The notes under the pieces were generated by a model. That model ran no database searches, had not been told where the DNA came from, and worked only from the letters and a program-made list of their open reading frames with translations. A stretch of 39,355 nt of DNA from Alphaproteobacteria bacterium GWC2_42_16 (GTDB lineage Bacteria > Pseudomonadota > Alphaproteobacteria > UBA9655). Positions 91-814 of the stretch are shown piece by piece. Numbering within the stretch: position 1 is the stretch's first letter; the number at the start of each line of letters is the position of its first letter. The position numbers were made by a program, and so were the translations under genes. Where the stretch lies: NCBI GenBank assembly GCA_001767835.1, contig MEMA01000039.1, positions 1 to 39,355 of the forward strand, in the 5' to 3' direction.

Positions 91-705
91 TTGAGGGAAG
101 AGAGGCATTATGACAAAGCTAAAGAACTTCTAGAAAAAAGTTTAGCCATTCACACTAACGTATTTGAAGATAATAACATTAGAACAGGGTTGGTTCTTTT
201 TCATCTGGGAAACTTATATAAAGATATGGGAGAATTTGAAAAAGCAAAAACCCTTCTTGAAAAAAGTCTTATAGCTCACGAACAAAATTATGGCAAAAAT
301 CATATCGAAACCATGCGAGTTTTAAGAAGTCTTGGGCAGAATTACCTTTTGAAAGGACATCTGCCAACAGCACAAGAGTACCTATCTAAGGTAGAAGAGA
401 TATTTCAAAAAAATAACCATCCTGACGTTTATATGGTTTTTGAAGATTTAGCCGAGCTATATCTTAAAAAAGCTATGCTTGAAGCAAATAAAGGAGATAC
501 AAAACAATCCCAAGCCTTTCAAATCCAAGCTACTTCCTACCTAAAGCAAGCTTTAGAAGTTGTAAAAACTCATTTTCCAAAAGATTCTCCTCACATTCTG
601 AGAATTCAAAACAAGATTGAAAAATTAAAAGGAATGAATTCTTTATTACAGGAAAAAACGATAAGACCAAAAGTATACCCGGCGTATACCCGCTACATTT
701 TTTGA
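91..705 (+). CDS. TPR protein, probable 5'-truncated remnant
   Basis: About 204 residues made of tetratricopeptide-like helical pairs, for example the segment with GNLYKDMGEFEKAKTLLEKS around residues 41-60. The reading frame is blocked by a TAG at 82-84 and the only nearby start is a TTG at 91 without a clear ribosome site. This looks like the 3' end of a longer gene cut by an insertion or deletion at about position 90. The last 25 residues (a Tyr/Phe, Ser-Pro-His and Ile-rich tail) resemble the end of the NB-ARC/TPR protein at 32338-35805, so this may be the tail of a paralogous STAND-TPR gene. It probably lies inside an old island that integrated at the adjacent tRNA-Lys. It is probably not functional alone. 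Confidence 0.6.
   Translation: MREERHYDKAKELLEKSLAIHTNVFEDNNIRTGLVLFHLGNLYKDMGEFEKAKTLLEKSLIAHEQNYGKNHIETMRVLRSLGQNYLLKGHLPTAQEYLSKVEEIFQKNNHPDVYMVFEDLAELYLKKAMLEANKGDTKQSQAFQIQATSYLKQALEVVKTHFPKDSPHILRIQNKIEKLKGMNSLLQEKTIRPKVYPAYTRYIF
672..689. repeat. GTATAC-n5-GTATAC module, copy 1
   Basis: AGTATACCCGGCGTATAC lies 50 nt from the CCA end of the tRNA-Lys(CUU) gene. The identical 18-mer occurs at 15297-15314, also 50 nt from the tRNA-Lys(UUU) 3' fragment. The two GTATAC hexamers make an interrupted palindrome. It may be an integrase or attachment-region element, or a conserved tRNA-downstream signal. Confidence 0.7.
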
Positions 706-738
706 ATTTTATGAAATCTCCAAACCCCTTGATTTTCC

Positions 739-814
739 TGGTGGGCGCTGCAGGATTCGAACCTGCGACCCGCTGATTAAGAGTCAGCTGCTCTACCAAC
801 TGAGCTAAGCGCCC
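739..814 (-). tRNA. tRNA-Lys(CUU)
   Basis: The minus strand folds into a full cloverleaf. The acceptor strands are GGGCGCT and AGCGCCC. The D arm contains AGCTCAGTTGGTAGAGC. The anticodon loop is CTCTTAA with anticodon CUU. The T arm contains GGTTCGAATCC, and CCA is encoded at 741-739. It lies 35 nt downstream of rpsD on the same strand. Its left side joins a truncated TPR gene and a repeat shared with the int-proximal tRNA-Lys fragment, so its 3' end may have served as an integration site. Confidence 0.97.

Follow-up and report, generated by a model that had tools for sequence, protein, structure and literature searches.

The 18-mer AGTATACCCGGCGTATAC, present twice near tRNA-Lys sequences in the window (the whole stretch of 39,355 nucleotides analysed here, which is all of contig C39 of a 1.54-Mb draft genome), very probably represents paired arm-type sites for an integrase, situated in the attachment regions of tRNA-targeting integrative elements. 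Since such a pair would be the docking site of one integrase family, left behind each tRNA gene that has been used, its two copies would represent two insertions of related elements. This reading draws on the positions of the copies, their pairing and period, their dependence on integrase lineage and one complete element, all of which are seen directly in the sequences compared. The genus concerned consists of kin of Candidatus Finniella, in the Paracaedibacteraceae, with as many as 11 such integrases in one genome.

Features expected of islands in tRNA genes were found, including a tyrosine integrase in the window (15572-16729) and another, of the GTATAC lineage, on contig C8, as well as an intact tRNA gene with a displaced 3' fragment, across contigs for Lys-TTT and Lys-CTT and on one contig in Finniella. 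As for arm-type sites, the same short word occurs on both attP arms and is tied to the integrase lineage, and PF13356 (Arm-DNA-bind_3) was detected in the window integrase and in integrases of the genus. In integrases of this group, the arms are bound by the DUF4102 domain (PMC8138268).

The two tRNA-Lys sites of the window

Exact copies of the 18-mer lie at 672-689 and 15297-15314, as the first-pass annotation had reported, and no match to it arose in 100 shuffles with up to three mismatches allowed; this result, together with the single position of the motif relative to tRNAs, led us to reject a chance origin. Each copy had been placed exactly 50 nt from a tRNA-Lys CCA end, and the distance is indeed the same at both sites but amounts to 49 nt. 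ARAGORN agrees with the description of one tRNA-Lys as intact, with anticodon CUU (739-814), and finds no tRNA at the second site, where the UUU fragment described is present as the 3' half of tRNA-Lys(UUU) alone (15364-15410). Comparison of the two spacers also bears out the partial likeness that had been noted between the intervening sequences. Four copies of the 18-mer with no more than one mismatch are present in the whole draft genome, all of them 49 nt beyond the 3' end of a complete or partial tRNA (Lys-CTT, the Lys-TTT fragment, Asn and Val). It can be re-read as part of a direct repeat, GTATACCCG GC GTATACCCG (673-692), in which the word stands at 673-681 and 684-692 with a period of 11.

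At the left end of the window, this arm-type pair of the GTATAC word is separated by a spacer (693-738) from an intact tRNA-Lys(CTT) on the minus strand (739-814), which would be the reconstituted target gene; the tRNA-proximal part of the spacer is common to a putative attR on contig C8. The latter comprises an integrase (723 bits to the GTATAC lineage), a Lys-CTT fragment and a partly decayed integrase-side arm pair with the GTATAC word, and the intact window tRNA matches the C8 fragment over 89 bp at 91%, starting in the anticodon stem. Positions 673-692 and 739-814 are best read as the attL of an element of the GTATAC lineage that continues beyond the contig end and has its attR on C8, a pairing that, like all those of the window's genome (C39/C8 and C39/C5), spans contigs of a draft assembly. 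The element side of this attL would occupy positions 1-672 up to the contig end and includes an open reading frame for a TPR protein (91-705); the DNA directly past the motif resembles that behind tRNA-Val on contig C45.

The 15.3-kb site appears to hold the attR of a second element, of the TGCTACC lineage, whose attL would be the intact tRNA-Lys-TTT on contig C5. The displaced tRNA-Lys(UUU) 3' half (15364-15410, minus strand), which ends in the anticodon stem, would provide the core of this attR, and the core region matches the C5 locus over 53 bp at 100%. In the second element the arm-type pair reads TGCTACCTA TG TGCTACCTA (15527-15546, plus strand) and again has a period of 11; its word recurs on C5, where it follows the CCA end of the intact tRNA-Lys-TTT at a distance of 47 nt. 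The tyrosine integrase gene (15572-16729, plus strand) is transcribed away from the att site and encodes the domains PF00589 (Phage_integrase, E 2.9e-25) and PF13356 (Arm-DNA-bind_3, E 1.6e-14).

The GTATAC pair of this site, GTATACCCG GC GTATACTCG (15298-15317), lies outside the second element, beyond the displaced tRNA half, and is therefore regarded as the fossil arm of an older occupant that was displaced with the old tRNA-Lys-TTT 3' half. The adjacent integrase (15572-16729) is of another lineage, whose arm word differs, so the copy at 15297 would likewise be a leftover of the older element and not the arm of its neighbour. No recognisable element gene was found in the DNA from 15297 to mutS, and the GTATAC element of Lys-TTT is known from its arm alone. 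Neither a tRNA-Lys nor a tRNA fragment was detected within 1.5 kb downstream of mutS in other genomes of the genus; these downstream regions do not support mutS as the ancestral neighbour of tRNA-Lys-TTT, an idea that was rejected, and the lack of a tRNA-Lys alongside mutS implies a further rearrangement at the junction with the fossil arm. The sequence once present between the fossil arm and mutS has been lost or rearranged. Only in the window's genome does a fossil arm follow mutS (14835-15297), and because other genomes of the genus mostly carry different genes there, this region constitutes a variable breakpoint.

The body of the second element would extend from 15411 to the contig end at 39355 and, among the transfer genes examined within the window, encodes a MobA_MobL domain protein (27169-30432) and a TraD-like protein (31698-32171). 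In the region 26390-31421, where the MobA/MobL relaxase forms a fusion with a RecD-like helicase, a HigB-like toxin with an HTH partner and a RhuM-Fic protein are also encoded; this content suggests a mobilizable element. An AbiEi/AbiEii-type toxin-antitoxin pair precedes a gene whose product combines TOTE conflict-system primase and helicase domains (19678-23761), and a protein of 1155 amino acids with a LuxR-type HTH, NB-ARC and TPR repeats (32338-35805) may be an unusual large regulator or a STAND-like defence protein. At the contig end (37050-39322), genes with Ntox8 and WHH/colicin-DNase-like toxin C-termini each adjoin a SUKH immunity-type gene.

The motif and its paired repeat across the genus

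When the 18-mer was searched for in the genome and its relatives (59 genomes), as the first-pass annotation had proposed, it proved to be almost confined to the window's own genus, and the outcome favours an attachment arm. The copies either follow tRNA ends at 48-50 nt or adjoin integrases, in accordance with the proposal that related elements used both tRNA-Lys genes. Among the distinct sites of the genus sorted by script, the gap on the tRNA side (n = 24) was 49 nt in 20 cases, 48 nt in two, and 50 and 44 nt in one each. The motif is also found immediately before integrase genes, where some 165 nt (164-166 nt for the eight script-sorted copies) separate it from the 3' fragment of a tRNA. 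Sites that the script left unsorted were, by eye, mostly of the same two kinds, namely Arg-ACG tRNAs at 48-50 nt and integrase starts. Copies unrelated to tRNA genes, many of which would speak against this reading, are represented by one clear orphan, a copy with one mismatch in genome G017. The tRNAs that carry the motif in the genus, intact or shortened, are Lys-UUU, Lys-CUU, Asn, Val, Arg-ACG, Thr and Met.

One genome (G011) has intact Lys, Val, Asn and Thr tRNAs each with the motif 48-49 nt behind, as in attL, and elsewhere an integrase, an upstream motif and a fragment for each of the same four tRNAs, as in attR. For the Val-TAC and Asn attL sites of the window's genome no clear partner with the same word was found. 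A complete element of about 8.8 kb is present on a single contig of Candidatus Finniella (CALPGA020000001.1), with the order intact tRNA-Met, 50 nt, CGGGTATACCCTGGGTATAC, cargo, integrase, an identical arm and a tRNA-Met fragment. Its arms match over 24 bp at 100% and its cores over 57 bp at 96%, and both arms are internal to the 57-bp tRNA-derived direct repeat, as expected of arm-type sites. At another locus (L179, G000:C5:27900-30700), a decayed GTATAC arm lies beyond a tRNA-Asn fragment that adjoins an integrase of the TGCGGCACC lineage; its spacer is that of the intact Asn locus on C6, and the arrangement constitutes a second nested case.

The genomes of the genus contain about 80 matches to the Arm-DNA-bind_3 domain. 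Among the 57 distinct attR-like sites, in which the 3' fragment of a tRNA precedes an integrase, 50 contain a 9-bp word repeated at a lag of 11 (at most one mismatch), compared with 14 at lag 10 and 0-2 at lags 9 and 12-18. The arm words of the genus include GTATACCCG, TGCTACCTA, TGCTCCCC, TGCTTCCG, TGGTGACAA, TTGGTGAAA, TTGGCGAAA, TGCGGCACC and AAACCATAT, among others, and the 18-mer first noticed appears to be the GTATACCCG spelling of a general paired-repeat device. Counted from the anticodon, in a data set where L092 and L093 carry wrongly called anticodons, the integrase-side pair starts at 120-122 or 132-135 nt, two classes that lie about one helical turn apart. Leu and Tyr tRNAs, with their long variable arms, conform to the count from the anticodon (132-133 nt) and not to that from the CCA (184-186 nt), which indicates that the distance is set by the core rather than by the tRNA end. 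On the tRNA side, a lag-11 repeat occurs 30-100 nt downstream of 10 of the 36 tRNAs of the window's genome, against 0-1 at other lags, and the His case among these ten is probably due to chance. In genome G000, tRNA-Ser-CGA, tRNA-Ser-TGA and tRNA-Trp (L183, L034 and L186, on C36, C38 and C3) are followed at 36-44 nt by a GGGACA pair, apparently the arms of another integrase group.

Alternative explanations and the proposed mechanism

On first reading, a conserved downstream signal of tRNA-Lys had been offered as the other possibility. A native host signal that follows tRNA genes and is kept at tRNA-Lys, for instance a terminator or a site of 3' processing, would be compatible with the fixed distance of 49 nt, with the weak 6-bp hairpin followed by TTTT that the motif could form (judged by eye), and with spacers of orthologous tRNAs that are alike while the DNA beyond the motif diverges. 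However, the motif is present at only four tRNA loci of a genome in which 36 tRNAs were found, also stands upstream of integrase genes, and follows Asn, Val, Arg, Thr and Met tRNAs. The orthologous rpsD-tRNA-Lys-CTT locus, moreover, carries the GTATAC word in the window's genome, a GGGGAGCA pair at 46 nt in G003, a TTTCGCCAA pair at 47 nt in G005, a TAGGTAGCA pair at 47 nt in G008, pairs further out with an integrase adjacent in G014 and G002, a weaker pair in G009 and no repeat pair in G011 and G013. Such different words, or none, at orthologous tRNA-Lys-CTT genes exclude a native tRNA-Lys signal and refute it as a general signal, so that this explanation is extremely unlikely. A terminator was also rejected because the motif lacks a long T run, has integrase-side copies and varies in word between species. 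Of the first interpretation, therefore, the attachment-arm alternative stood whereas the tRNA-Lys signal and the 50-nt gap did not.

Constant spacing across different tRNAs, and divergence right past the motif, could also be produced by transposon ends inserted at a fixed distance behind tRNA genes, as in Tn7-like targeting, but this is barely conceivable given that the displaced DNA holds a tRNA 3' half from the anticodon stem, as tyrosine integrases leave, and that the neighbouring gene encodes a tyrosine integrase. In the complete element the motif copies lie inside the 57-bp tRNA-derived repeat, with core identity extending from the anticodon stem to past the CCA, and no transposase gene was seen adjoining the att sites. 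That the pair serves mainly as an operator for an integrase regulator (excisionase or repressor), its tRNA-side copy being a second site for the same regulator, is highly unlikely, if somewhat less so than the two preceding explanations. The GTATAC spelling is near-palindromic (GTATAC-N5-GTATAC), the integrase-side pair lies near the start codon, and integrase expression is controlled at att in KplE1 and ICEMlSymR7A (PMC2951348, PMC11963761). The words of other lineages, however, are non-palindromic and show the same 11-bp direct repeat, which makes the direct repeat the common feature, and the words track the integrase tree.

For the preferred reading of arm-type integrase sites, we propose that attP would carry a copy of the tRNA 3' half as its core, with the crossover in the anticodon loop, and one arm pair on each side, the first next to the integrase start at a distance of about 165 nt and the second 49 nt past the tRNA 3' end. 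The N-terminal arm-binding domain of the integrase would dock on the two 9-10 bp repeats, which, being one helical turn apart, would be bound in pairs on the same face of the DNA, and the catalytic part would act at the core. Once integrated, the element would be bounded by an attL, in which the restored tRNA is followed by one arm pair, and an attR, in which the second pair adjoins the integrase next to the displaced tRNA fragment. At tRNA-Lys-TTT, an older GTATAC-lineage element would have left its attL arm (15298-15317), and a TGCTACC-lineage element would subsequently have entered the same gene, cutting off the GTATAC arm with the old tRNA half. The integrase-side pair may also repress the integrase promoter, and the elements may still be active today.

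Integrase lineages, tRNA targets and known systems

On a quick tree without bootstrap of the 47 integrases with both labels, and with word classes grouped by hand, the arm word changes 10 times against a shuffled mean of 31.8 (minimum 27) and the tRNA target 28 times against a mean of 33.9 (minimum 30), the target count omitting L092 and L136, with unclear tRNA targets, and the shuffle test three very long branches. The spelling is thus tied to the integrase lineage and hardly to the tRNA target. The window integrase is 92% like an integrase of the same genome that uses Arg-ACG. We suggest, as possible rather than probable, that specificity is split, with the arm word locked to the protein and the core a swappable copy of the last-used tRNA half, such that near-identical integrases (95% alike for those using Thr-TGT and Lys-TTT) serve different tRNAs; a new core would give a new address, and new targets would be gained through core exchange.

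Two further integrases resemble the GTATAC lineage. A closed genome of Candidatus Megaira encodes an integrase 70% identical to it (L223), which suggests transfer between orders; an arm-like repeat lies by this integrase, and a pattern search there yielded no tRNA fragment. The other, 79% identical (L231), is on a short contig of a Rhabdochlamydiaceae bin and may reflect binning contamination, a bin of the same sample name being also among the matches.

Arm-type integrase sites in tRNA islands are of a known kind. In phage lambda, as proposed here, Int reads short arm repeats with its N-terminal domain and a distant core with its catalytic domain; its arm array and helper-protein layout differ from those of the present elements and, to our knowledge, lambda targets no tRNA gene. 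KplE1/CPS-53 of E. coli (IntS, argW) is likewise inserted in a tRNA gene; the arm-type sites of this prophage lie in the interval from the tRNA to the integrase, and their overlap with the integrase promoter allows self-repression (PMC2951348); unlike here, its integrase adjoins the intact tRNA. In the argW-intS gap of E. coli we found a weak 11-bp repeat (GGGTAAAA/GGATAAAA) and one 15-bp repeat, and nothing further. For ICEMlSymR7A of Mesorhizobium (IntS, tRNA-Phe), arm sites with a core in the tRNA gene are required for integration, autorepression of the integrase has been proposed, and the 283-bp attP similarly combines several short IntS arm sites (consensus TGKTGGTATC) with a tRNA-gene core (PMC11963761). 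It differs in having five sites of one consensus with a different word. Islander islands share the intact tRNA at one end, the 3' fragment at the other, the integrase aboard, tandem arrays and anticodon-centred sites, and that work, which maps cores and not arms, had already noted the frequent target switching of integrases (PMC4383910).

What the present data set adds, and where its interest lies, is the contrast of lineage-bound arms with shifting targets. The genus represents a natural experiment in integrase target change, in which arm words rarely change and targets change almost at random. The arm words serve as lineage tags that reveal the ends of integrated elements in fragmented assemblies, even fossil ends that have lost their integrase, and that allow each end to be assigned to the integrase family that produced it.
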